DNA of 38,686 bases, taken from contig DXEN01000031.1 of the NCBI GenBank assembly GCA_019114945.1, positions 1-38,686 on the forward strand. The letters run 5' to 3'. Of the stretch, positions 20,281 to 37,878 are shown in pieces. The notes under the pieces were generated by a model. That model was not told where the DNA came from, did no database searches, and saw nothing but the letters and a program-made list of their open reading frames with translations. Position numbers and translations under genes: made by a program. Position 1 is the stretch's first letter; every line of letters starts with the position of its first letter. The stretch is from Candidatus Parabacteroides intestinigallinarum (GTDB lineage Bacteria; Bacteroidota; Bacteroidia; Bacteroidales; Tannerellaceae).

Positions 20281-20560
20281 CGGGAAAACCCGCCGTGGCT
20301 CGCGGGAACGTTTCCCGGAATGGGAAAACCCGCCGCGGCTCGCGGGAGCGTTTCCCGGAATGGGAAAACCCGCCGCGGCTCGCGGGAACGTTTCCCGGAA
20401 TGGGAAAGCCCGCCGCGGCTCGCGGGAACGTTTCCCGGAATGGGAAAGCCCGCCGCGGCTCGCGGGAGCGTTTCCCGGAATGGGAAAGCCCGCCGCGGCT
20501 TGCGGGAACGTTTCCCGGAATGGGAAAACCCGCCGCGGCTTGCGGGAACGTTTCCCGGGA
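20281..20560. repeat. 40-bp tandem repeat, seven copies
   Basis: Exactly seven 40-bp units lie end to end, differing at few positions (A/G in GGGAA/GCG, AAACC/AAGCC, CTCGC/CTTGC). Each unit contains GGGAACGTTTCCC-like and CCGCCGCGGC-like self-complementary cores. Because 40 is not a multiple of 3 and stops are absent, all frames stay open, which produces spurious ORFs on both strands. It fills the 389-bp gap between the CDP-alcohol transferase and DUF5686 genes. Confidence 0.95.
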
Positions 20561-20599
20561 CCGGAAGGCTTTGTTTTTTGTAATGAATGAAATGATAAG

Positions 20600-23170
20600 A
20601 TGGGGATGATGATTAGAAAAATATTTTTCACGCTGATTGTTTGGGTTTGCGGGCTGGGTGTTTACGCACAAAATCGGACAATCGCGGGCATCGTGACCGA
20701 CTCGCTCTCCGGCGAGGGGCTGCCGTACGCCTCGCTTATCGTGACGGGGACGACTGTCGGGACGGCGACGGACGAGGCGGGACGCTTCTCGCTCGCCGTG
20801 CCCACCGGCGCGCGGGAGATTGAGGTCTCTTACTTGGGGTACGACACGAAGCCGGTGGCGCTGCCGCGGGGAAAGAGCCGGTCGCTCCGTATCGCGTTGG
20901 TGCCGAGCGGCATCACGCTGAGCGACGTGGTGGTGCGCCCCGGGCGCGAGCGTTACCGGCGGAAGGGCAACCCGGCGGTGGCCTTCGTGCGGGAGATGAT
21001 CGAGCGGCGCGGCGAGCACGACCCGCGGGAGCGCGATTATTACAGCTACGACCGCTACGAGAAGGTCATCTTCGCCATGAACGAGTACACGCCGCCCAAG
21101 CCCAAGGCGGACGGCAAGCAGGGCAAGTTCGATTTCCTGGTCGATTTCGTCGATACGCTCGACGCCGGCACCACCATCCTGCCGCTCTCCGAGCGCGAGC
21201 GGGTGGAGACGGTCTACTACCGCCGCGAGCCGCGGTCGGAGAAGCGGGTGGTGCGCGGGGCGCATTCCTCCGGCGTGGACGAGGTGTTCGCCCGCGACGG
21301 CGTGCAGCAGTTCCTGGAGGAGGCTTTCCGCGAGGTGGACCTGTTCCAGAACAACATCCCGCTCTTCCTGCAACGCTTCGTCAGCCCCCTTTCCAAGATA
21401 GGGCCGTATTATTATAAGTACTATCTGCTCGACACGGTGCAGGTGGACGGCGAGCGGTGCGTCGACCTGGGCTTCGCGCCCTTCAACTCGGAGACGTTCG
21501 CCTTCACCGGCCATCTCTACGTGTCGCTCGACTCCACGTATTTCCTCAAGCGAGCGGTCCTGAACGTGCCGCGCGACATCAACCTCAACTTCGTCTCCCG
21601 CATGACCATCGACCAGACCTTCGTCCGCACGGCGGACAGCGTCCGCCTCATCACGAAGGACGACATCAGCGTCAACTTCAAGCTGAGCGAGAAATCGAAG
21701 GGGATGTACGCCCGGCGGCTGAACCGCTACCGCGGCCATTCGTTCGAGCCGCCCGCGGGCGACGCCGCGCTCGTGTTCGAGCGGGCCGAGCCGGTCATCT
21801 CCCTCGCCGGCGCCTACCAGCGCCCGGACAGCTTCTGGGTGGCGGCGCGTCCCGAAGAGGCGGTGCGGCGGAATCCCCGCTCGGTGGACGCGCTGATGGC
21901 GAAGCTGCGCGCCGTGCCCGTCTTCTATTACTCCGAGAAGATACTGACGGCGCTCATCGGCGGCTACATCCCGACGAACAAGGATCCGCTGAAGAGCAAG
22001 TTCGAGTTCGGGCCGATGAACTCCACCTTCAACGGCAACGCCATCGAGGGCGCCCGTTTCCGGGTGGGCGGCACGACGACTCCGGCTTTCAACAAGCATT
22101 TCTTCCTCGACGGCTACGCCGCCTACGGCACGCGCGACCGGAAGATGAAGTACGACATCCTGGCGGAGTACTCGTTCAACGCCCGGAAGGACTACCGCAA
22201 GGAGTTCCCCATCCATTCCCTCCGCTTCGAGTATATGTACGACCTCAACAAACTGGGGCAGAACTATATGTACACCGGCAAGGATAACATGGTGCTGGCC
22301 ATCCGCCGGAAGAAGGACAACTTCGCCACCTACCTGCGGCGGGCGGAGCTGACCTACACCCGCGAGCATTACAACGGCATCTCCTACGGCGCCACGCTGC
22401 GCAACTTCCGCGAGTACGCCACGCCCTTCGCCGCCTTCGACCGCATCGGCGCCGATGGCTCGCTGACCCCGCTCTCGCGTTACGACATGACGGAGCTGGA
22501 GCTGCGCTTCCGCTACGGCAAGGACGAGAAGTTCTACCAGACGCGCAACTGGCGCATCCCCATCACTTACGACGCGCTCATCTTCAACCTGAGCCACGTG
22601 ATGGCGAAGAAGGGCTTCCTCGGCTCGTCGTACGATTATATGCGGACGGATATCGGCGTGCAGAAACGTTTCTGGCTCTCCGCCTTCGGCTATGTCGACC
22701 TCATCACCAAGGCGGGAAAGGTGTGGACGAAGGTGCCCTATCCCTTGCTCATCCTGCCGAACGCCAACATGACCTACACCATCCAGCCGGAGACCTACAC
22801 GAACATGAACGCCCTCGAGTTCATGAACGACGAGTACCTGTCGTGGGACATGACCTATTACATGAACGGCAACCTGCTGAACCGCGTCCCGCTCATCAAG
22901 AAGCTACAGTGGCGGGAGGTGTTCTGCTTCCGGGGGCTGTGGGGGCACCTGACGGACAAGAACGACCCGGCGAAGAACGGCGGCGAGGGGCTGTTCGCCT
23001 TCCCGGAGGAGACGTACCGCTTAGGGAAGAAGCCGTACATGGAGGTGAGCGTGGGTATCGAGAACATCTTCAAGTTCCTGCGCGTCGACTATACGTGGCG
23101 CTTGAACTACCTCGACCATCCCGACATCCAGAAGCGGGGCATCCGCATGACGATGCGCATGAGCTTTTAA
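20600..23170 (+). CDS. DUF5686 outer-membrane protein with carboxypeptidase-regulatory-like N-terminal domain
   Basis: The 856-residue precursor has a signal peptide (IFFTLIVWVCGLGVYAQ). A CarboxypepD_reg-like domain follows (about 25-110; IAGIVTDSLSGEGLPYASLI and a GTATDEAGRFSL block). The long DUF5686 region is predicted to form an outer-membrane barrel. The C-terminus ends in strand-like segments and a terminal Phe (RMTMRMSF), as in Bacteroidetes barrels. In-frame ATGs at 20600, 20606 and 20609 make the exact start uncertain. The family resembles TonB-dependent receptors but lacks a plug; its function is unknown. It follows the lipid cluster after the tandem repeat and could export or receive the product. 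Confidence 0.9.
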   Translation: MGMMIRKIFFTLIVWVCGLGVYAQNRTIAGIVTDSLSGEGLPYASLIVTGTTVGTATDEAGRFSLAVPTGAREIEVSYLGYDTKPVALPRGKSRSLRIALVPSGITLSDVVVRPGRERYRRKGNPAVAFVREMIERRGEHDPRERDYYSYDRYEKVIFAMNEYTPPKPKADGKQGKFDFLVDFVDTLDAGTTILPLSERERVETVYYRREPRSEKRVVRGAHSSGVDEVFARDGVQQFLEEAFREVDLFQNNIPLFLQRFVSPLSKIGPYYYKYYLLDTVQVDGERCVDLGFAPFNSETFAFTGHLYVSLDSTYFLKRAVLNVPRDINLNFVSRMTIDQTFVRTADSVRLITKDDISVNFKLSEKSKGMYARRLNRYRGHSFEPPAGDAALVFERAEPVISLAGAYQRPDSFWVAARPEEAVRRNPRSVDALMAKLRAVPVFYYSEKILTALIGGYIPTNKDPLKSKFEFGPMNSTFNGNAIEGARFRVGGTTTPAFNKHFFLDGYAAYGTRDRKMKYDILAEYSFNARKDYRKEFPIHSLRFEYMYDLNKLGQNYMYTGKDNMVLAIRRKKDNFATYLRRAELTYTREHYNGISYGATLRNFREYATPFAAFDRIGADGSLTPLSRYDMTELELRFRYGKDEKFYQTRNWRIPITYDALIFNLSHVMAKKGFLGSSYDYMRTDIGVQKRFWLSAFGYVDLITKAGKVWTKVPYPLLILPNANMTYTIQPETYTNMNALEFMNDEYLSWDMTYYMNGNLLNRVPLIKKLQWREVFCFRGLWGHLTDKNDPAKNGGEGLFAFPEETYRLGKKPYMEVSVGIENIFKFLRVDYTWRLNYLDHPDIQKRGIRMTMRMSF

Positions 23171-27657: not shown

Positions 27658-28599
27658 ATGAGACGAAGAAGAAACAGAAGAGAGGAGAAGGATTCCCCGT
27701 CCTTCTCGGAGTATATTAAGGTACGCGCGAAGATACAGACCACCTTGGGGAAGCACGCCACGGCCGAGCTTTATAGCGTGGCGGGGAGGCATTGGGCGCG
27801 CTTCTTGCAAGGGCGCCCGTGCCGCTTGTGCGACGTGAACGCCACCCTCGTGGCCGACTTCACCGATTATCTGCGGGCGCGCGATTTGCGCACGAACACC
27901 ATCAACAGCTACCTCAGCAGCTTGCGGGCCGTCTACAACGCCGCGGTGGGCGAGGGGCTGGTGGATGGCGAGCCGAACCCCTTCGCCGGCTTGCGGCTGA
28001 AGCGGGAGATAACGGCCAAGCGGGCCGTGCCCGCCTCCGTCGTGGAGGAGATGGCCCGGCTGGACCTGAACGACAACCCGGAGTGGCAGCGGGCGGTCGA
28101 CTTGGCGCTGTTCGCTTTTTGCGCCTTCGGGATGCCTTTCGTCGACGTGGTGTGCCTGCGCAAGGCGGACATCCACGACGGCGAGATCGTGTACCGCCGC
28201 CGGAAGACCTCCGCCGAGATACGCATCGGCGTGACGCCCGCCATGAAAGCGTTGTTCCGGAGGTATGCCAATAATACCCCCTACGTCTTCCCCCTGGAGC
28301 AGGAGGCCATCGAGCGGCAGGGCTACGCCGCCTATAAGCTGTTGCTCGCCAGGCACAACAGGGCGTTGGCGCGGGTGTCGGAGCAAGTGGGCGCCACGAC
28401 GCGGCTCACCTCATACGTCATGCGCCACACGTGGGCGTCGGAGGCGTTGGCGAACGACGTGTCGGTGGCCATCATCAGCCAGGCGCTGGGGCACTCGTCC
28501 GAGCAGACCACACGGTGCTACCTGAAGCAGCTCGACCGCTCCGCCCTCGACGAGGCGAACGACCGCGTAACCGGGTTTTTGAATAAATATATAGGGTAA
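27658..28599 (+). CDS. Tyrosine recombinase (DNA invertase type) adjacent to the invertible promoter
   Basis: This 313-residue protein has an N-terminal SAM-like core-binding domain (about 15-105) and a C-terminal catalytic domain. Recognisable catalytic residues are Lys183 (RRRKT), Tyr253-x-x-Arg256 followed by His257 (TSYVMRHTWA, the Y-x-x-R variant usual in this Bacteroidetes branch), His279 (ALGHS) and the nucleophile Tyr288 (RCYLKQL). The first catalytic Arg, expected in an RGMxFVD motif, is Phe158 here (AFGMPFVD). A good GGAG precedes the start. The gene ends 7 nt before the left inverted repeat, the usual layout of a dedicated invertase. Whether it is active without Arg I is an open question. 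Confidence 0.9.
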   Translation: MRRRRNRREEKDSPSFSEYIKVRAKIQTTLGKHATAELYSVAGRHWARFLQGRPCRLCDVNATLVADFTDYLRARDLRTNTINSYLSSLRAVYNAAVGEGLVDGEPNPFAGLRLKREITAKRAVPASVVEEMARLDLNDNPEWQRAVDLALFAFCAFGMPFVDVVCLRKADIHDGEIVYRRRKTSAEIRIGVTPAMKALFRRYANNTPYVFPLEQEAIERQGYAAYKLLLARHNRALARVSEQVGATTRLTSYVMRHTWASEALANDVSVAIISQALGHSSEQTTRCYLKQLDRSALDEANDRVTGFLNKYIG

Positions 28600-28606
28600 A
28601 AATGGA

Positions 28607-28629
28607 CAACTTATTTACGAAATAAGTTG
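28607..28629. repeat. Left recombination site of the invertible promoter
   Basis: CAACTTATTT-ACG-AAATAAGTTG is a perfect 10-bp dyad around a 3-bp centre, as expected for two recombinase monomers bound in opposite orientation. The 25-bp stretch 28610-28634 reappears exactly, inverted, at 29044-29068. Confidence 0.88.
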
Positions 28630-29068
28630 AAGGCGATTTTTCCCGCGTAGGCGATTACCCCCAATCGCACGCTTGGGAAACGCGAATCGCGCTCAAAACT
28701 GGAAGAATTAGGGAGTAAAAACCGCTGTCTGCGGATCTATACCACTCATAAAAACACTTTAATGGCATTGTTAATTAATAAAAAGACACAGTGGTTTTAG
28801 GGACCTCGTTTTTCTGTTTGCGAAGGATGGGTTAAAGATGAGATTTTTCGGTTAAAAAGCGGTAAGCATCCTTCTTTTGAGATCCCCTACGGTATGACAA
28901 GCAACGAACGCGGTAAAAAAAACCGGGAAATATTTGCTTATTTGTTATTTATCACCTTACTTTGCGGTTGCTATCGTGAAAAAACGAAGTCAAGACGCTC
29001 TTTCGGTAAGATATAAATAACTCTATATAAGGAAGTTATTAAGGCCTTCAACTTATTTCGTAAATAAG
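28610..29068. other. Invertible DNA segment (phase switch)
   Basis: Perfect 25-bp inverted repeats (28610-28634 and 29044-29068) bound a 409-bp segment with no ORF and a single outward promoter at its right end. An imperfect hairpin (28716-28730 with 28784-28799) lies in its middle and may act as a terminator in one orientation. As read, the promoter points toward the fimbrial genes (ON). After inversion it would point back into the recombinase gene's antisense strand. Inversion itself is inferred; only the architecture is seen. Confidence 0.85.
28933..28964 (+). promoter_or_regulatory. Promoter inside the invertible segment
   Basis: TTTG (28933-28936), a 20-nt spacer and TTACTTTG (28957-28964) form a Bacteroidetes-type promoter with one deviation from TAnnTTTG. 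The same octamer precedes ppk1. Transcription would begin near 28972, cross the right repeat and reach DUF3575 at 29162. Confidence 0.7.
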
Positions 29069-29071
29069 GTG
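29049..29071. repeat. Right recombination site of the invertible promoter
   Basis: CAACTTATTT-CGT-AAATAAGGTG is the inverted partner of the left site, with one mismatch in the outer arm. The asymmetric centre reads CGT here and ACG on the left, so crossing over would invert rather than delete the segment. Confidence 0.88.
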
Positions 29072-29161
29072 CAGGCAAAAAGCTCCTACCGAGGGACGCG
29101 AGGGGTTCAGGAAACGATGATAAAAAGAAAAAGGGAGTATAAAAATAAAATAATACAGACG

Positions 29162-29761
29162 ATGAAAACGAGAAGGCTAATCACTGTGTTGGTAGCGATT
29201 TGCGCCGTATGCCAACTCTACGCGCAAAGCGCCGCGCTTGGCGACGAAAAGGGGTCCGTGGTCGCGCTCAAGACCAACTTGCCCTATTGGGGCACCGCCA
29301 CTTTCAACGCGGGCTTGGAGTTCCGCCTCGCCCGCCATTGGACACTGGACATCGAGGCGGGCCTGAATCCTTTCGACGGGAAGAACGACGACGGTTCCTA
29401 CGATCGCACGATGAAACACTTCCGGGCGCACCCGGAAATCCGCTATTGGTTTTGCGAGGCTTTCCAAGGGCATTTCCTCGGACTGCACGTGCCGTTTATC
29501 GCCTACAACTTCGCCGACCTGAAAGTGCTCGACCTTGAGGACGAGCGCCGGCAGGGATGGGGCACGGGCGTAGGCGTCAGCTACGGCTACCAATGGCTGC
29601 TCTCTAAGCATTGGAACGTGGAGGCGACGCTCGGCGTAGGCTATCTCTACCTGAATTACGACCGCTTCCCCTGCGCCAATTGCGGCAACAAGACGGAGGA
29701 CAACACGAAACATTATTTCGGTCCCACCCAAGCCGCGGTGAGCCTGATTTATCTCTTTTGA
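29162..29761 (+). CDS. DUF3575 outer-membrane protein, first gene of the fimbrial operon
   Basis: This 199-residue protein has a signal peptide (LITVLVAICAVCQLYAQ). It then has strand-rich sequence with VALKTNLPYWGTATFNAGLEF and WTLDIEAGLNPFDGKN, typical of DUF3575. The C-terminal strand VSLIYLF ends in Phe, as in outer-membrane barrels. The MKTRRL start at 29162 is chosen over an upstream ATG at 29069 because the latter would put 31 charged residues before the signal peptide. DUF3575 genes commonly lead Mfa-type fimbrial operons next to DUF3868. It is the first gene after the invertible promoter. Confidence 0.87.
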   Translation: MKTRRLITVLVAICAVCQLYAQSAALGDEKGSVVALKTNLPYWGTATFNAGLEFRLARHWTLDIEAGLNPFDGKNDDGSYDRTMKHFRAHPEIRYWFCEAFQGHFLGLHVPFIAYNFADLKVLDLEDERRQGWGTGVGVSYGYQWLLSKHWNVEATLGVGYLYLNYDRFPCANCGNKTEDNTKHYFGPTQAAVSLIYLF

Positions 29762-29774
29762 TTTCAAATTTAAG

Positions 29775-29960
29775 ATTTCAAATTTAAAATTTAAAGGTTA
29801 GGTGTTCCCGTAAGCCGTGAAATCTGAAACTTGAAATGATTGAAATCTGAAATTTTAAATCTGAAATTTTAAATTTGAAATGATTGAAATCTGAAATTTT
29901 AAATCTGAAATGATTGAAATCTGAAATCTGAAATTTTAAATTTTAAATCTGAAATCTGAA
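29775..29960. repeat. AT-rich GAAATCTGAAATTTTAAAT repeats with an 18-bp inverted pair
   Basis: The spacer between DUF3575 and DUF3868 is made of irregular TCTGAAAT / TTTTAAAT repeats. ATTTCAAATTTAAAATTT (29775-29792) is the exact reverse complement of 29864-29881. The array runs directly into the next start codon. Confidence 0.8.
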
Positions 29961-31388
29961 ATGAACAAAGCAGCATCAATCATATTAACGGCGGCCGCCG
30001 CTTTCGCGGTGACGGGCATCGCCGCCCAGGAGGCGGACAACACCCTGCGCGTCGACAAACAGCTGATTGAGCGCTCCGGCGACTACCTGCTGGTCGACCT
30101 CACGCTCAACCTCAGCGATATACACGTGAGTTCCAATCAGTCTATCATCTATACACCGCTGATCACGCGGGGCGATAGCGCGCGGGCGCTTCCCCCGCTG
30201 ATCGTCAACGGGCGCACGCGCCACATCCTGTACGAGCGCACCGGCCGCGACGCCGCGACCGACAACGAGTTCGCCTTGCGTCGCCGCAACGGCACCGAGC
30301 AGACGTTCGACTACCACGCTCGCGTGCCCTACGCCGCGTGGATGGGGCAATCTACCATGGAGATGGCGATAGACGACTGCGGCTGCGGCTGGCAATCGGC
30401 CGGCGTGGGGCGCGACGAGCTGTTCCCCATCGCGCTGGAGCGGCCCGAGCCGAAACCCTTCCTGGCCTATATCGCCCCGAAGGCGGAGGTGAAGACGCGC
30501 GCCCTGAGCGGTAGCGCCTTCCTCGACTTCCCCGTGAACCGCGTGGAGATACATCCGGACTACCGCGGCAACGCCGCCGAGCTGGTCAAGATACGCGCCA
30601 CCATCGACCAAGTGCGCACGGATAAATACGCCACCATCACCGGCATCAACATCAAGGGATACGCCTCGCCCGAAGGCTCGTACGCCAACAACGAGCGACT
30701 GGCGAAGGGACGCTCCGAGGCGTTGCTCGACTACGTGCGCGGCCGCTACGACCTGGCCGGCGTGGAGACCCGCGTGGACTACGAGCCGGAGGACTGGGCG
30801 GGCCTGGAGCGCCGCGTGGAGGCGACCGACCTGGCCGATAAGGCGGACATCCTCGCCATCATACGCGCCGACGAGCCGGCCGACTGGGACGCCCGCGAGT
30901 GGAAGCTGAAGACGCTGAACGGCGGCGAGAGCTACCGCTATTTATTAAAGGAGATTTACCCGGCCCTGCGCCACTCGGACTACGAGGTGGCCTACACCAT
31001 CCGCCCGCTCAGCGTGGCGGAGGCGAAGGAGCTGATTTATACCGACCCGAGGCAGCTGAGCCTGGACGAGATGTTCCAGGTGGCGCGTACCTACGAGGCG
31101 GGTAGCCCGGAGTTCAACGAGGTGTTCGAGATTGCCGTCCGCATGTATCCGGACGACCCGGTGTCGAACCTCAACGCCGCCAACACCGCCTTGCGCCGCG
31201 GCAATCCCGCCGCCGCCCGCCGATACCTGGCGAAAGCGGCGGACGGCCCTGAGAAGCGCCTCGCCGAGGGCGTAGCCTCCTGGCTGGAGGGCGACACCGA
31301 TGCGGCGAAGTCAATCTTCGAGTCGCTGGCGAGCGACCCCGCCGTAGGCGAGCAAGCGAGAGCCAACTTGGAGCAGGTGGGGGAGTAA
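29961..31388 (+). CDS. DUF3868 / OmpA-like fimbrial-operon protein
   Basis: This 475-residue protein has a signal peptide (about 1-23). An N-terminal DUF3868 domain (about 25-155) includes LLVDLTLNLSDIHVSSNQS and the Cys pair DDCGCGWQ. A middle OmpA-like segment (about 180-345) has VEIHPDYRGN and ITGINIKGYASPEGSYANNE with RLAKGRSEALLDYV, the pattern of peptidoglycan-contacting OmpA C-domains. A C-terminal helical repeat region (about 370-470; TPR-like, SNLNAANTALRRGNPAAARR) follows. It may anchor or assemble fimbriae across the periplasm. It is strongly GC-rich, in contrast with the fimbrillin gene. Confidence 0.85.
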   Translation: MNKAASIILTAAAAFAVTGIAAQEADNTLRVDKQLIERSGDYLLVDLTLNLSDIHVSSNQSIIYTPLITRGDSARALPPLIVNGRTRHILYERTGRDAATDNEFALRRRNGTEQTFDYHARVPYAAWMGQSTMEMAIDDCGCGWQSAGVGRDELFPIALERPEPKPFLAYIAPKAEVKTRALSGSAFLDFPVNRVEIHPDYRGNAAELVKIRATIDQVRTDKYATITGINIKGYASPEGSYANNERLAKGRSEALLDYVRGRYDLAGVETRVDYEPEDWAGLERRVEATDLADKADILAIIRADEPADWDAREWKLKTLNGGESYRYLLKEIYPALRHSDYEVAYTIRPLSVAEAKELIYTDPRQLSLDEMFQVARTYEAGSPEFNEVFEIAVRMYPDDPVSNLNAANTALRRGNPAAARRYLAKAADGPEKRLAEGVASWLEGDTDAAKSIFESLASDPAVGEQARANLEQVGE

Positions 31389-31406: not shown

Positions 31407-31583
31407 TGTGTCAAAAAGCTAACTGAAAAGCTCCCCCGGGAGGGGAGCTGGCGAGCGTAGCGAGACTGAGGGGTCGCGAAGCGCTATCAGACAGAGAGAA
31501 CAACCCCTCACCCGCTTCGCGGGAGCTCCCCTCCCGGGGGAGCTTTTCAAAAAGCAGGGATGTACTTTCTCTATTTTGACACA
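31407..31583. repeat. Nested inverted repeat with perfect 26-bp arms
   Basis: The arms 31424-31449 and 31524-31549 are perfect 26-bp reverse complements (TGAAAAGCTCCCCCGGGAGG continuing to AGCT). An outer pair, TGTGTCAAAA (31407-31416) and TTTTGACACA (31574-31583), encloses them, and the inner loop carries GAGGGGT / ACCCCTC. A partial relative of the GAGCTCCCC motif follows up to about 31640. It fills most of the 289-bp gap between the DUF3868 and HU-like genes. Confidence 0.9.
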
Positions 31584-31677: not shown

Positions 31678-32133
31678 ATGGCCATAAAGTACAAATTGAT
31701 TCAGAGGAGAGACTTCACGAAGGGGGCACAGCCCACCGACAAGAAGTATTACGCCACGTTGGTAAGCAACGGAACGGCGAGTTTGGAGGAGATTTGCGAG
31801 AGCATCTCCGAGGAAACCGCGCTGACAAGCGCCGATGTGAAAAGTTGTCTCGACCGGTTGCCGCGCATCATCGCGCGCCACCTCCGCGAGGGACGTAACG
31901 TGCAGGTAGGCGAGCTGGGCAGCTTCCGCTTCGTACTGTGCAGTTCAGGAGCCGACACGGAAAAGGAATTCGACGCCGCCACGATGATGCGCACGCCCAA
32001 GTTGGTATTCACGCCCGGCATGGTTTTGAAGGACGTGCGTGAAAAGGCGACCTACACGCGCGTCACCAAGAAGCCCGAGGGCGAGGAGACGACCGGGGGC
32101 GGCGAGGAAACCGAATCCCCGGGAACCGTTTAA
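31678..32133 (+). CDS. HU-like (HU-HIG type) DNA-binding protein inside the fimbrial operon
   Basis: This 151-residue protein belongs to the same Bacteroidetes HU-like family as the gene at 1699-2157. It begins MAIKYKLIQRRDF, has a helical middle (VSNGTASLEEICESIS, LTSADVKSCLDRL), then GRNVQVGELGSFRFVL, the HU signature, and FTPGMVLKDVREKATYTRV. The C-terminus is acidic and Gly/Glu-rich (EGEETTGGGEE). The position between a barrel-associated protein and the major fimbrillin suggests it is co-expressed with the fimbriae. It could feed back on the locus's AT-rich or repeated DNA, but no target is known. Confidence 0.87.
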   Translation: MAIKYKLIQRRDFTKGAQPTDKKYYATLVSNGTASLEEICESISEETALTSADVKSCLDRLPRIIARHLREGRNVQVGELGSFRFVLCSSGADTEKEFDAATMMRTPKLVFTPGMVLKDVREKATYTRVTKKPEGEETTGGGEETESPGTV

Positions 32134-32513: not shown

Positions 32514-34472
32514 ATGAAAACGAACATGAAACTAAAAAGTACACTTTGGGCATTGGCATTCGCGGTAGCCGCGGTGTCGTGCTCCGACGATTTGGAAGAG
32601 AATGGCCCGGGCAATAACAATGAGAATGCGACAAATGGCGGCTACTTTATGTCCGTCAACATAGCGACCGGGGGCGGTTCTTTCATGACTAAAGCGAACG
32701 GAGAGGGCGATACCTATCTGGAGGAAGAAGGGAAAGAGGACATGGTATATGATGTCAATGTGTTTCTGGTAAGCGGTACGGACAATCCTGCTGACTTGCT
32801 CGACCTTTTGAACTCGACGAATGCTTCAACTATTCAAATCGCCGGACAAGGTTATACCTCTATTGAAAATGGATTAACACCCGATGGTGGCACGGAGCCG
32901 AATCATGACAAGGTAGAAGTGGAAATGCAACTGACCGAACCTATTTCCGGAACGGATGCTCAGACATACCAGGTGTTTACGGTGGTCAATGCGGGTGAGA
33001 AACTGTCAAATATTAGTACATTGGCAGATTTGCGTGACTATGTGCATTCCACGGTTGTATGGGCTGGCACGGCTGGACAGGAGGACAAGTTCGTCATGTC
33101 TACTCACAAGATGACAGGTGTGCCTGGAAATTCAGTAGTGACCCTTTCCGCCGCGAATATGAGCGAAAGTAATCCCGCGGTGACGAACGTCTATGTGGAA
33201 AGACTTGCCGCCCGTATTGACTTGAAAGTGGATGAGGCTTTGTTGAACAGCGGTTATTCTACTACGGATCAAACAGCGATCGCTAACGGTAAAGGAACAT
33301 TCAAACTGACCGGCTATACGGTCGTAAACCGTTGGAATGGCGATAGCTATATGTTTAAGCAGGTTTCTCCCACGGTAAGTGCTTGGGATGCCGATCTTCC
33401 AGATGCGAGCACTACTTATGCGGCCGGCGATCCCAAGAAGTATTTAGGCGATGAAAAGTGGGTTCAGACAGGTACTGTCCCCGCAGGCTCTTATAATTAT
33501 GTAATCGAACCGAAGACTCGCGAGAAGAATGGTACGGACTTTATGACGGCTTCTTATCTGAATCCGTTTAGTGAGGATGGTGATTTGAACACTCTTACTT
33601 CAAATAATGAATGGGTGACAACTTTGACTAATCTCTCTTCTTCGGCTTTCAAGAAAATTGCTTACACCAAAGAGAACACGATGTCGGTCAAAAATCAATT
33701 GAATGGTTATTCTACCGGTGTCATCTTTGAGTCTGAGTTTACTCCGAATGAGAATTTTAAGGTTAGCAAATATTCAGATGGAACCGTGAGCGAGGTGGCT
33801 TTAGAAAGTAGTAATAAAACATTCTATATGGCTAACCACCAAAATGGGAATTCTACCCAAAAAGTGACTTATGCGGACTTGAAAACAATCGCGGCTATGG
33901 CTTTCGATGGAATCTCAGCAGAGTTTATGACTACGGATATGTATAAAGGGTTTATGGATGGAACTTGGCCGTCGACTGATCAAGAGTTAACGAACATCCA
34001 AGGTTTAATCGACCAAATGAAAGAATCAAACAAGGTTGAATCTGCTTTTAAGACGTATCTGTCAAGGATTGCCAATACCGATGCGGCTAATTGGGCTTCG
34101 GTAAAAGATAAATTGACTTATGAGAAATTCTTGGCGTCTACAGAAGGTTCTGGTTTAATAGAAACCAATACTAATTTATTCAAGGATTTCGGTGTCTCTT
34201 ATTACAAGGCTGGTAAGAGCTACCATAAATTCTGGATTCGCCATGACGACAACAATGATGATAAGAGGATGGGTGTTATGGAGTTCTGTATCGTTCGTAA
34301 CAATGTTTACCAATTGCAGGTAAGTGGTGTAAGAGACTTGGGTGACCCTCTGCCTTTCACTCCGGGTAAAGACGATCCGAACAACCCGGACGAAAATGAT
34401 GAAGTTAGCATTTTGGTTAACTTGTACGTCAAGAACTGGGTAGTACGCAGCAACAGCGGCATCATCCTCTAA
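32514..34472 (+). CDS. Mfa1-type major fimbrillin (structural subunit)
   Basis: This 652-residue lipoprotein precursor has a signal peptide ending AAVSC (lipidated Cys23). Mfa1-like features are VYVERLAARIDLKVDE (about 220-235), GVMEFCIVRNNVYQLQVSGV near the C-terminus, and a final strand ILVNLYVKNWVVRSNSG. That strand is expected to take part in donor-strand assembly, as in Porphyromonas Mfa1/FimA. The gene is distinctly AT-richer than the DUF3575, DUF3868 and HU-like genes upstream, a sign of exchange or diversifying selection. It would polymerise into the fimbrial shaft after processing. A terminator-like hairpin follows, which could keep downstream genes at lower level. Confidence 0.88.
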   Translation: MKTNMKLKSTLWALAFAVAAVSCSDDLEENGPGNNNENATNGGYFMSVNIATGGGSFMTKANGEGDTYLEEEGKEDMVYDVNVFLVSGTDNPADLLDLLNSTNASTIQIAGQGYTSIENGLTPDGGTEPNHDKVEVEMQLTEPISGTDAQTYQVFTVVNAGEKLSNISTLADLRDYVHSTVVWAGTAGQEDKFVMSTHKMTGVPGNSVVTLSAANMSESNPAVTNVYVERLAARIDLKVDEALLNSGYSTTDQTAIANGKGTFKLTGYTVVNRWNGDSYMFKQVSPTVSAWDADLPDASTTYAAGDPKKYLGDEKWVQTGTVPAGSYNYVIEPKTREKNGTDFMTASYLNPFSEDGDLNTLTSNNEWVTTLTNLSSSAFKKIAYTKENTMSVKNQLNGYSTGVIFESEFTPNENFKVSKYSDGTVSEVALESSNKTFYMANHQNGNSTQKVTYADLKTIAAMAFDGISAEFMTTDMYKGFMDGTWPSTDQELTNIQGLIDQMKESNKVESAFKTYLSRIANTDAANWASVKDKLTYEKFLASTEGSGLIETNTNLFKDFGVSYYKAGKSYHKFWIRHDDNNDDKRMGVMEFCIVRNNVYQLQVSGVRDLGDPLPFTPGKDDPNNPDENDEVSILVNLYVKNWVVRSNSGIIL

Positions 34473-34706: not shown

Positions 34707-34859
34707 AATTGACAATTGACGATTGACAATTGACAATTGACAATTGACAATTGACGATTATCAGTTATCAGTTCGTGGGGAAACAAAGAAAATTATAGAA
34801 AGGTAAATTGTCAATTAGAAAAAGGACAATTGTCAATTGTCAATCGTCAATTGTCAATT
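34707..34859. repeat. 33-bp perfect inverted repeat of TTGACAA heptads
   Basis: The 33-nt segment 34707-34739, a run of TTGACAA/TTGACGA heptads, is the exact reverse complement of 34827-34859. They are separated by 87 bp. The right arm ends 8 nt before the Mfa2-type start codon, so the folded RNA would place a long stem immediately before translation starts. Nothing else recognisable fills the 395-bp spacer apart from the hairpin at 34526-34583. Confidence 0.9.
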
Positions 34860-34867
34860 AGAAAAAG

Positions 34868-35983
34868 ATGCAGGGAATGAAGAACATATGGATTAAATCA
34901 ATCGGGACGCTGGCCCTGGCGACGGGCCTGGCGGCTTGCGAGTATATTCACGACGACTCGCTCGCGCCTTGCGAGTACCGCTTGCGTTTCGTGTACGATT
35001 ACAACATGAAGTTCGCCGACGCCTTCCAGCACGAGGTGACGCGCGCCGCGCTCTTTATCTGCGACGATAAAGGTACCTTCATCGAGCGGCGCGACTTGGA
35101 AGGCACGGAGCTGAAGGCGAACAACGTCGTGATGGATTTGGAGCCGGGCACCTACACCCTCCTTACCTGGGCGGGGCTGGACGACGGCTCGTACACCTGG
35201 CCCGACCTGACGCCGGGCACGTCTACCGTGGAAGATATCAAGGTGCGTACGCTACGCGAGGCGGACGGCACCCAACCCCGCGAGCTGGAGCCCCTGTGGC
35301 ACGCGCTGGATACGCTCGTCATCACCGGCGACCGCCACGAGGAGAAAGAAATATCGCTCGCCAAGAATACCAACAAGCTGCGCGTCGTGCTGCAAGACAC
35401 CGAGGGCTACAGCATGGACGCCTCGGACTTCACGTTCCAAATCGTGGCGGACAACGGCTACATGGACTACGACAACTCCCTGTTGCCCGACCCCTCCATA
35501 ACTTATACGCCTTATTATAAAGAGAACCTGCCCGTGGCGGAGGGCGACAGCATCAACGGCCGTCCCGCCAACAGCTACGTGGTGGCGGCGGAGCTGAACA
35601 CGATGCGCCTCATGGCGGGCGAGAACTACCGCCTCGTGGTGCGCCACGATGGATGGGAGGACGACGTGCTCAACGTCAACCTCAACAATTACCTGCTCTA
35701 CACGCAGATGGAGGGACACAACATCTCGGCGCAGGAGTATCTGGACCGTCAGGACGAGTATTCCATCGTCTTCTTCCTGACGCCCATCATCTGCCCCGAC
35801 TGTCCGGACCCCGATGACCCGGATGACCCCGACGACCCGGATGATCCCGATGAGCCGGACAATCCCGATAATCCGGATAACCCCGACTATCCCGACCCGG
35901 ATGAGCCGGTAGTCGTAGGCTACGCGTGCTACAAGATACAGGTAAAAGACTGGGTAATCCGCCTGAACGAGGGGGAACTATAA
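34868..35983 (+). CDS. Mfa2/FimB-type fimbrial anchor lipoprotein
   Basis: This 371-residue precursor has a lipobox at TGLAAC (Cys24), then CEYRLRFVYDYNMKFADAF, the N-terminal signature of the FimB/Mfa2 family. In Porphyromonas, Mfa2 anchors the fimbria to the outer membrane and limits its length. The C-terminus carries an Asp-Pro-rich tract of about 38 residues (PDDPDD / PDNPDN / PDYPD repeats, about 35803-35915), an unusual rigid acidic spacer before a final strand with VKDWVIRLN. ATG at 34868 is taken as start; 34877 is possible. It follows the shaft gene, the standard order. Confidence 0.88.
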   Translation: MQGMKNIWIKSIGTLALATGLAACEYIHDDSLAPCEYRLRFVYDYNMKFADAFQHEVTRAALFICDDKGTFIERRDLEGTELKANNVVMDLEPGTYTLLTWAGLDDGSYTWPDLTPGTSTVEDIKVRTLREADGTQPRELEPLWHALDTLVITGDRHEEKEISLAKNTNKLRVVLQDTEGYSMDASDFTFQIVADNGYMDYDNSLLPDPSITYTPYYKENLPVAEGDSINGRPANSYVVAAELNTMRLMAGENYRLVVRHDGWEDDVLNVNLNNYLLYTQMEGHNISAQEYLDRQDEYSIVFFLTPIICPDCPDPDDPDDPDDPDDPDEPDNPDNPDNPDYPDPDEPVVVGYACYKIQVKDWVIRLNEGEL

Positions 35984-35989
35984 TATCAA

Positions 35990-36240
35990 TGGACAATTAA
36001 CGATTGACAATTGACAATTTCCCCTCTTGAGAGGGGGCAGGGGGTGTGTTAAATTGACAATTAACGATTGACAATTGACAATTAAGCGCTCCCGAAGGCA
36101 ATCGTCAATTGTCAATTGTCAATCGTCAATTTGAAAAGTCAATTATCAATCTGAAAGGTCAATTATCAATCTGAAAGGCCAATTGTCAATCGTCAATTGT
36201 CAATTGTCAATTTGAAAAGTCAATTATCAATTTGAATAGA
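35990..36240. repeat. TTGACAA / TTGTCAA heptad arrays between fimbrial genes
   Basis: TTGACAA and TTAACGA heptads (about 35996-36080) face TTGTCAA/TCGTCAA heptads (about 36100-36235) across the AAGCGCTCCCGAAGG loop also seen at about 32165. Diverged TTATCAATCTGAAAGG copies lie in the right half. It fills the whole gap before the minor fimbrillin. Confidence 0.88.
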
Positions 36241-36246
36241 TAGAAT

Positions 36247-37878
36247 ATGAACCGATTGAAAGATACATACAAACACATGGCGGCGGTGGCCTCGGCGCTG
36301 CTGCTCGCGCTGTCCGTCCTTCCCGCCTGCTCCGACGACGAAGGGGGAGGAGCGGACATCCCCGAGGCTCAATACGCCAAGCTCGTCATCTCGTTGGGTA
36401 GCTTGGATAACGCTACGCCCGCCGCCACGAAGGCGGTAGACGATGACGGATATATAGAGAGCGACATTATCGACGATGAATACAATGATTCGGATTACGA
36501 GCATTATATCGACAAATGGTGGCTGTTGGTATTGCATCAAGAAGACGGTGCGTATCAATTCGACCGACTGATTTCCAATAGCCCGACCGCCAACAACACG
36601 CATCCGGATTCCGAGACCTCGATAGAGATGGAACTATTGATTTATGACACGTACAAGTTCTACGCCTTCGCTAATTTAGGCGGTTTGGATAATGGCGAAG
36701 ATGTTATCAAATGGATAGAAGGATTGAATGCGGCTTCTTTCGAGGAGGCGGAATTCCAAAAGGAAGGAGTCGAGCTGTTAGACATGAACAGCTACCACGA
36801 GGGCGAAGGTTCGTCTTACATCCCGATGAGCAGCTACGGTTATACGGTCACCGTGCAAGCGGATAACAACTCGTTGCGCATCCCCTTGATTCGTCTGCTG
36901 GGCAAGGTGGAGCTGGACGTGACCAACTCCTCCGGGAAAGACGTGAAGATAGAGAAATTGACGATGGGCAAGTTCCGCGACGAGGGCGAGATTTATCTGT
37001 TGCCTTACGACGTGGCGACAGGCGATAACGGCACGGGTAATTTGATGGTCGGCACGGGAGACGAGAAAAAATTGTTGAACCCTTCGTTCCCTACCGAAAG
37101 CGAAAGGGTGGGCAATGACTGGACATTGCCGGAAACGGCGGATAAGGAATTATTCGCTTCTGCGGAGAATGACGCGAACAAGCGGACGTACACCTTTTAC
37201 ATCAACGAGACAGGCAACCAGAACCAAGAGGGTGGCGGAGCGAAAGATATGACGATAGCCATGAAGGTAAGCGGCATCGAGAAAGATGAGACAGAGCAAG
37301 ATACTCGCTTTTTCTTTATCCGGCGGAATGATTGGTTGCGCATTCCCATCTTGATATCGAACGCGCAAACAACGATAACTGTCGCCCAGCGGCATATGCC
37401 GATTGGCGGAGTGCCCGCGGAGTTGTTCTTCGACAATGGCGCGATTATCGCCGACCAAACGGTGACGTTGGATCATGCGGGCATCGTGACGATAGGTTAC
37501 GCATTGAAAGAGATCAACGGACAAACGAACGGTTGGAGCTTGAAGTATTTACAATCAACTTATCAACCCGGCGAGCAATTTTGCATGGCGCAAGTGGAAG
37601 ATAATCCGAATGGCTTGATTTTGGTGCGTGATGACGATAAGGATGACGAGAGCCAGAAGAATATATGGATAGATTTGGATTGGCTGGATGATTCTCAAAA
37701 AGGTTTTAATTTACAACCGACCGAGGGTAGTAAGACTTCCGGTAGCTTTAAGCTCCGTATACAGGAACTGGCATCCGGCACGGCGAAAGTGAAGCTGACG
37801 TTGGTGGCCACTCACACGAGCGGACAAGAGATTATATTACCTTATACGATTACATTAAACTATGAAGGAGGCAACTAA
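36247..37878 (+). CDS. Minor fimbrillin-family lipoprotein
   Basis: This 543-residue precursor has a signal peptide and lipobox (LSVLPAC, Cys28), then a Gly/Asp-rich linker. The fimbrillin-like feature is LIRLLGKVELDVTNSSGKDV (about 217-236), typical of the N-terminal domain that packs in Mfa/Fim subunits. The C-terminal half is Ig-like, with strands such as VKLTLVATHTSGQEIILPY. It probably forms an accessory subunit near the tip, like the Porphyromonas Fim or Mfa minor components, although exact equivalence is not claimed. Its stop is 2 nt before the next ATG, and its last codons include the GGAGG used by that gene. Confidence 0.8.
   Translation: MNRLKDTYKHMAAVASALLLALSVLPACSDDEGGGADIPEAQYAKLVISLGSLDNATPAATKAVDDDGYIESDIIDDEYNDSDYEHYIDKWWLLVLHQEDGAYQFDRLISNSPTANNTHPDSETSIEMELLIYDTYKFYAFANLGGLDNGEDVIKWIEGLNAASFEEAEFQKEGVELLDMNSYHEGEGSSYIPMSSYGYTVTVQADNNSLRIPLIRLLGKVELDVTNSSGKDVKIEKLTMGKFRDEGEIYLLPYDVATGDNGTGNLMVGTGDEKKLLNPSFPTESERVGNDWTLPETADKELFASAENDANKRTYTFYINETGNQNQEGGGAKDMTIAMKVSGIEKDETEQDTRFFFIRRNDWLRIPILISNAQTTITVAQRHMPIGGVPAELFFDNGAIIADQTVTLDHAGIVTIGYALKEINGQTNGWSLKYLQSTYQPGEQFCMAQVEDNPNGLILVRDDDKDDESQKNIWIDLDWLDDSQKGFNLQPTEGSKTSGSFKLRIQELASGTAKVKLTLVATHTSGQEIILPYTITLNYEGGN

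Follow-up and report, generated by a model that had tools for sequence, protein, structure and literature searches.

The window analysed here is a 38,686-nucleotide stretch from the 2.98-Mb genome of Candidatus Parabacteroides intestinigallinarum. It carries a tyrosine recombinase gene (27658-28599, plus strand), followed by an A+T-rich intergenic segment (39% G+C vs 56% for the window) and a run of fimbrial genes. The latter, annotated with Pfam and NCBIfam profiles, all lie on the plus strand and encode a DUF3575 protein, the first of the operon (29162-29761; PF12099, E 1.6e-69), a DUF3868 protein (29961-31388; PF12984), an HU-family DNA-binding protein (31678-32133; PF18291, TIGR01201), the major subunit, or stalk, of an Mfa1-family fimbria (32514-34472; NF038041 with 180 bits for a cut-off of 130, and PF15495), an Mfa2-type anchor (34868-35983; PF08842, E 3e-75) and a further Mfa1-like pilin, possibly an accessory or tip subunit (36247-37878; a weak NF038041 match of 21 bits, below the cut-off, and no Pfam match). 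With an Mfa1 stalk and an Mfa2 anchor in one operon-like run, the genes by themselves mark an Mfa1-type (type V) pilus locus. Two more DUF3575 loci are present in the genome (C56 and C27); their upstream regions of about 1.5 kb contain neither a recombinase match nor a repeat pair.

Several other repeats were noted in the window. A perfect 26-bp GC-rich inverted repeat, possibly a mobile hairpin element, separates the DUF3868 and HU genes (31424-31549), and contigs C25 and C50 also contain its core. The spaces between the Mfa1, Mfa2 and Mfa1-like genes (34707-34859 and 35990-36225) are dense in ATTGACAATTGAC-type repeats, both direct and inverted. Tandem repeats of the TGAAATCTGAAATTT type, whose inverted arms of 40 nt are 85% complementary, surround the gap that separates the DUF3575 gene from the DUF3868 gene (29753-29970), where they might attenuate or vary operon expression. 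The repetitive region 20290-20600 has several open frames with recurring peptide units (e.g. MGKPAAARGNVSRN); it directly precedes the following gene and extends into its beginning.

Inverted repeats, dyads and a predicted promoter

The segment between the recombinase and the operon is bounded by perfect inverted repeats of 25 bp, CTTATTTACGAAATAAGTTGAAGGC on the left (28610-28634, plus strand) and its exact reverse complement on the right (29044-29068, minus strand). Such repeats around a short intergenic stretch are a defining trait of invertons, and together with promoter scoring and inverted counterparts in relatives they outline a probable invertible segment of 459 bp (28610-29068), which is in the ON orientation as assembled. 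The original prediction had proposed the same repeats and boundaries; the repeats were re-found and the coordinates are correct. After block shuffling (20 windows), the longest perfect inverted repeat per window measured 11-16 bp, and the further long ones of the unshuffled window are ATTGAC-type repeats (34707-36212) and the GC-rich hairpin at 31424-31549. The exact 25-bp repeat had no match in the viral contigs searched.

Each repeat overlaps a putative recombination-site dyad around ACG/CGT, as had also been proposed. The left dyad, CAACTTATTT-ACG-AAATAAGTTG (28607-28629, plus strand), is a perfect quasi-palindrome with an asymmetric centre and is kept in relatives; the right one, CAACTTATTT-CGT-AAATAAGGTG (29049-29071, minus strand), has one mismatch, located in its outer arm. 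Mismatch-free copies of the core site ACTTATTTNNNAAATAAG occur in the genome at these two positions only, and the switch of the window has exactly two sites. The recombinase stop codon ends at 28599, that is, 7 nt before the left dyad and 10 nt before the perfect 25-bp repeat.

Inside the segment we predict a Bacteroidetes-type promoter, TTTG-N20-TTACTTTG (28933-28964, plus strand), from which transcription would start near 28971. The -33 element of Bacteroidetes promoters is TTTG, found here at 28933-28936, and a 20-nt spacer separates it from TTACTTTG at 28957-28964. Nine of the ten consensus positions agree, the exception lying in the -7 box, where the consensus is TAnnTTTG (PMC4747536; this and the other papers cited by PMC number are represented here by excerpts). 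Counting both strands, the 38.7-kb window contains five matches of equal quality (spacer 19-21), of which a single one falls within the segment, in agreement with the earlier claim of one good promoter facing the fimbrial genes. As 8% of within-segment shuffles reach its score (control value 0.08), the promoter call is modest when taken alone. The promoter that an inverton should hold inside the segment, facing the operon, is thus represented by a consensus match, i.e. a predicted promoter.

Site pairs and segment orientation among relatives

The closest relatives of the recombinase are encoded by Parabacteroides genus-mates, and we compared 36 Parabacteroides loci, including the window (a 37th, L087, was left out; its sequence breaks off 149 nt beyond the stop codon and contains one site). 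Directly after the recombinase gene, 29/36 possess paired inverted sites of the form CTTATTT-NNN-(A/G)AATAAG, one mismatch being allowed. Three contigs (L049, L060 and L077) end within 125 nt of the recombinase stop, and no such pair is present in the other four loci (L057, L079, L080 and L082), of which L079 has a variant repeat. The nearest relative of the window, L049, with a recombinase 57-59% identical, breaks off 125 nt past the stop; its best DUF3575 match lies on a contig taken to be from the same genome, and the first 780 nt of that contig lack a matching site. In L052, L054, L055, L056 and L061 each switch has three or four clear sites, and L060 has two before its contig end; the P. 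distasonis switch (L054) carries two in each arm. Judging from the arrangement of the sites, these switches could adopt more than two states.

Inversion between unchanged flanks was observed among these relatives. When L050 and L051 are compared, their 300-nt flanks match on the same strand (scores 311 and 328, vs 20 and 19 on the opposite one) and their segments on the opposite strand (123 vs 20 on the same one). The same holds for L052 and L055, which come from a single MAG, with scores of 300 and 197 for the flanks (opposite strand, 22 and 16) and of 307 for the segment on the opposite strand vs 24 on the same one. All four loci belong to the recombinase clade of the window, which therefore includes the segment in both orientations and supports the original prediction that an invertible promoter governs the Mfa-type operon. 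An all-against-all comparison of 51 segments retrieved 40 matching pairs, 33 in the same and 7 in opposite orientation (L050/L051, L052/L055, L094/L101, L106/L117, L105/L117, and the short L101/L128 and L098/L105); the segment of the window matched none of the other 50. Three loci of Bacteroides caecigallinarum were checked for inversion within the species, and none was found. In one strain of this species, An496 (L116), the segment departs abruptly, some 160 nt beyond the stop codon of the recombinase gene, from those of two near-identical strains, probably owing to an insertion that splits the switch.

Scoring of 50 segments placed the better promoter towards the recombinase in 37 and towards the operon in 10, with 3 ties, some rows being near-copies of one another. 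Among the 20 rows with a control p of at most 0.05, near-copies included, 17 are OFF and 3 ON; the window is ON and stands outside these 20. In five contigs (L090, L103, L122, L123 and L126) the sequence breaks off 4-36 nt beyond the recombinase stop; another (L109) ends in a second copy of its own site. Such breaks at the sites fit assemblies split by mixed orientations; the repeats alone could do the same.

The recombinase of the window falls into a clade of 12 rows with a support of 100/98. DUF3575 or Mfa-type matches lie downstream in 10 of the 12 loci, the other two being those whose contigs end 125 nt (L049) and 999 nt (L057) past the stop. Globally, the distance between enzymes correlates with the distance between their sites (r 0.59, n 42, 0/2000 permutations, after 7/49 sites with weak dyads were dropped), and so it does within Parabacteroides (r 0.35, n 29, 0/2000 permutations, with L091 left out). 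This co-variation would tie each switch to its own recombinase, although shared descent may explain it as well as specificity does. A capsule label for the Parabacteroides loci lacking DUF3575 or Mfa matches proved only partly right when eight first genes were scanned: L065 and L078 begin with a glycosyltransferase, L064 and L068 with DUF3575, L072 with a sub-cutoff Mfa_like_1 match, L062 and L063 with an HU-like domain, and L079 with an adhesin-like domain. Since DUF3575 or Mfa matches were thus found among unlabelled loci, the fimbrial label in the tree undercounts.

The recombinase active site

The 313-aa recombinase, a probable local invertase, is assigned to the tyrosine recombinases by its Pfam core-binding and catalytic domains, its fold and the nucleophile Y288. 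Its active site departs from the canonical R-K-H-R-H pentad: proline (P160) stands in place of the first arginine and tyrosine (Y253) in place of the first histidine, while the lysine (K183), the second arginine (R256) and the second histidine (H279) are kept. The earlier description of a non-standard enzyme is thus borne out by real catalytic-site substitutions. As the pentad is known to vary in recognized subgroups (PMC8138268), membership of the family, based on fold and nucleophile, stands. In 81/81 sequences the first catalytic arginine is absent, an arginine two residues before the catalytic lysine (R181) is invariant and the first catalytic histidine is a tyrosine. The relatives came from a scan of the best 80 of 435 recombinase relatives in named genomes with two peptide patterns. 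The tyrosine is part of one of these patterns, and the 15 loci unmatched by it have the tyrosine as well. We infer that the displaced R181 and Y253 act in catalysis. With its SAM-like core-binding domain beginning at residue 15 of 313, the protein has 14 residues before it, which leave no room for an arm-binding domain; no arm-binding Pfam domain of the kind that characterizes IntCTnDOT integrases was matched. Neither the window recombinase nor ten relatives matched a named NCBIfam invertase family; the only hits, all of them under the cut-off, were to Xer-, integron- and other integrase-type models.

How far the tyrosine accompanies promoter switches was assessed on 40 stretches with other Parabacteroides tyrosine recombinases, hand-picked at about every fourth row among the matches listed in order of Pfam score, and on five stretches from the same genome as the window. 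These 45 stretches yielded 51 ORFs, 6 of them too short to judge. An adjacent inverted repeat was detected in 7/9 genes lacking the arginine and having the tyrosine, in 0/7 lacking the arginine and having the histidine, and in 1/29 evaluable genes with both the arginine and the histidine, where it was a low-complexity repeat; shuffled controls, pooled over all loci, gave 1/555. Once two evaluable duplicates from overlapping stretches were dropped, the difference amounted to 7/9 for the Tyr type vs 1/34 for the His types (p 8.5e-6), and collapsing six Tyr-type genes that share one site type into a single event left p at 0.025. In this sample of limited independence it is therefore the change from histidine to tyrosine, and not the loss of the arginine, that goes with promoter switches. 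Not every relative has a detectable switch, as 19 of the 65 Tyr-type loci with enough sequence in the scan (best 80 of 435) show no adjacent repeat by the same criterion.

These data lead us to a tentative suggestion, which we regard as somewhat less than an even chance: that Bacteroidales promoter invertases of this family form a catalytic class of their own, with the first arginine moved beside the catalytic lysine (R181/K183) and tyrosine replacing the first histidine, and that the latter replacement, rather than the arginine displacement common to CTnDOT-like integrases, marks dedicated promoter invertases and separates them from integrases by sequence alone. Among the matches listed in our literature search, neither the site family nor the Tyr-type signature of Bacteroidales invertases was identified; key subscription papers lay outside its reach, and it is weak evidence of absence.

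Two further Tyr-type recombinases are encoded by the same genome. One (C48, 5733-7061, minus strand; L198) is followed by 28-bp inverted repeats, TCCCGCTTCCTCGCGAGAAGTGGGAAAA, bounding a 250-bp stretch upstream of a gene for a 390-aa protein without a Pfam match and of genes that by eye resemble polysaccharide genes. The other (C30, 11813-12787, minus strand; L199) has no adjacent repeat that we could find and lies, again by eye, beside AraC-like regulator genes.

A probable promoter switch for a pilus operon and its known counterparts

Taken together, the locus is very probably a self-contained phase-variation switch, in which a local recombinase inverts a 459-bp promoter segment in front of a pilus operon. 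The recombinase would bind the two quasi-palindromic sites, with arms of 8-10 bp around the asymmetric ACG/CGT centre, and invert the segment between them. In the assembled ON state the promoter would read through the right site into the DUF3575-DUF3868-HU-Mfa1-Mfa2 operon; in the inverted, OFF state the operon would lose its promoter, which would face the recombinase gene from the 3' side, making antisense feedback on the recombinase geometrically possible. That the neighbouring enzyme performs the inversion, that the predicted promoter works and that pilus expression follows the orientation of the segment are likely extensions of the sequence evidence.

The assembly of the window, a single genome, contains only the ON form, with 0 inverted junctions, as would be expected of a once-active switch now locked ON with an effectively constitutive promoter. 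Compatible with such a loss are the mismatch in the outer arm of the right site and the inward extension of the repeat, TTGAAGGC, which lies outside the family dyad. Nevertheless, we consider it unlikely: the recombinase is intact and retains the family-invariant catalytic residues, imperfect dyad arms are frequent among relatives, and decay would erode the repeats, whose inner arms and 25 bp are still perfect. Slightly less probable again is inversion in trans by another recombinase of the cell acting as a master invertase. Invertases of B. fragilis act on distant sites (PMC4747536), and the C48 and C30 enzymes could be candidates; against this, the site family of the adjacent recombinase sits beside that enzyme's own relatives, the C48 switch has a site sequence unlike that of the window, and the genome contains the window's site nowhere else.

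The repeats might instead be RNA hairpins or operator sites, serving as terminator or attenuator and not in recombination. Both dyads do fold as RNA (z -5.46 for the left on the minus strand, z -2.19 for the right on the plus strand), and expression in B. fragilis is reported to fall as more repeats intervene between promoter and genes (PMC4747536). This reading is improbable as a full account, since it leaves unexplained the opposite-orientation segments, the recurring paired inverted sites and the adjacent recombinase, and 0/4 terminator-like matches fall at the dyads. A secondary attenuating role of the repeats alongside inversion is possible; the right dyad would lie in the ON leader transcript, and because both dyads fold and the leader crosses one of them, this leader may be attenuated. 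Finally, that the gene encodes an integrase left over from a decayed mobile element, with the repeat as attachment site, as the phage-integrase names of its Pfam matches might suggest, has a negligible probability given the lack of room for an arm-binding domain (by Pfam and fold), the absence of mobile-element proteins among the nine other window proteins scanned (0/9) and the fimbrial genes downstream in 10/12 clade members.

The original prediction took promoter inversion as established in gut Bacteroidetes and held that this element may be an undescribed switch. That it stands isolated as an undescribed kind is not supported: the locus is one of a large Parabacteroides family, and inversion of promoters of surface operons, with tyrosine recombinases as neighbours, has been published (PMC12632263, PMC4747536, PMC12118408). 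The kind of switch is already known; what is less expected is an enzyme with rearranged active-site residues. The locus offers a clear, testable pilus switch in Parabacteroides, and in its family natural ON/OFF pairs are available, together with a compact site, CCTTATTT-NNN-AAATAAGG, for finding further switches. If the Tyr-type signature holds, promoter invertases become separable by sequence from the many integrases of gut Bacteroidales, and the question arises of how a tyrosine recombinase works with tyrosine replacing the first histidine of its pentad.

In Escherichia coli, the fimbrial-operon promoter carried on fimS is inverted by FimB and FimE, tyrosine recombinases encoded next door; the fimbriae are unrelated to those of the window, the sites differ, and there are two recombinase genes vs one. 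A phase-variable fimbria-like locus of B. fragilis was reportedly described by Weinacht in 2004, under a title that names tyrosine recombinases. The fim switch is mentioned, and inversion sites of P. distasonis are documented, in PMC5903667. Bacteroides surface loci undergo DNA inversions, and one phase-variable locus includes a fimbrial-type protein (PMC12632263); this B. fragilis fimbria-like locus resembles the proposed switch of the window in that it combines phase variation with a fimbrial-type protein. One tyrosine recombinase of B. fragilis inverts two promoters (PMC4747536). Fimbrillin genes are enriched near some inverton groups (PMC11892184), and capsule promoters have neighbouring tyrosine-type invertases (PMC12118408).

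The closest parallels in layout are Tsr19/BF2766 and the switches that control capsule in B. xylanisolvens and B. thetaiotaomicron, where, as in the window, a tyrosine recombinase adjoins an invertible promoter upstream of a surface operon and inverted repeats are present (PMC4747536, PMC12118408). In these local Bacteroides switches several repeats can stand between promoter and genes, the site sequence is another one, and the cargo is capsule or EPS as opposed to the Mfa-type pilus of the window; one published capsule repeat, sought as an exact match across 295 genomes of the order, was present in none. As regards the enzyme, the excerpts of PMC8138268 describe two comparable cases. In IntCTnDOT the first catalytic arginine is likewise displaced downstream, and the downstream residue functionally replaces it, whereas IntDes, reported there only from Desulfovibrio and with unknown function, shares with the window recombinase both the shifted arginine and the tyrosine for the first histidine. 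The window recombinase differs from both in that it has no arm-binding domain and, with its relatives, is found beside promoter switches and not in integrative elements.
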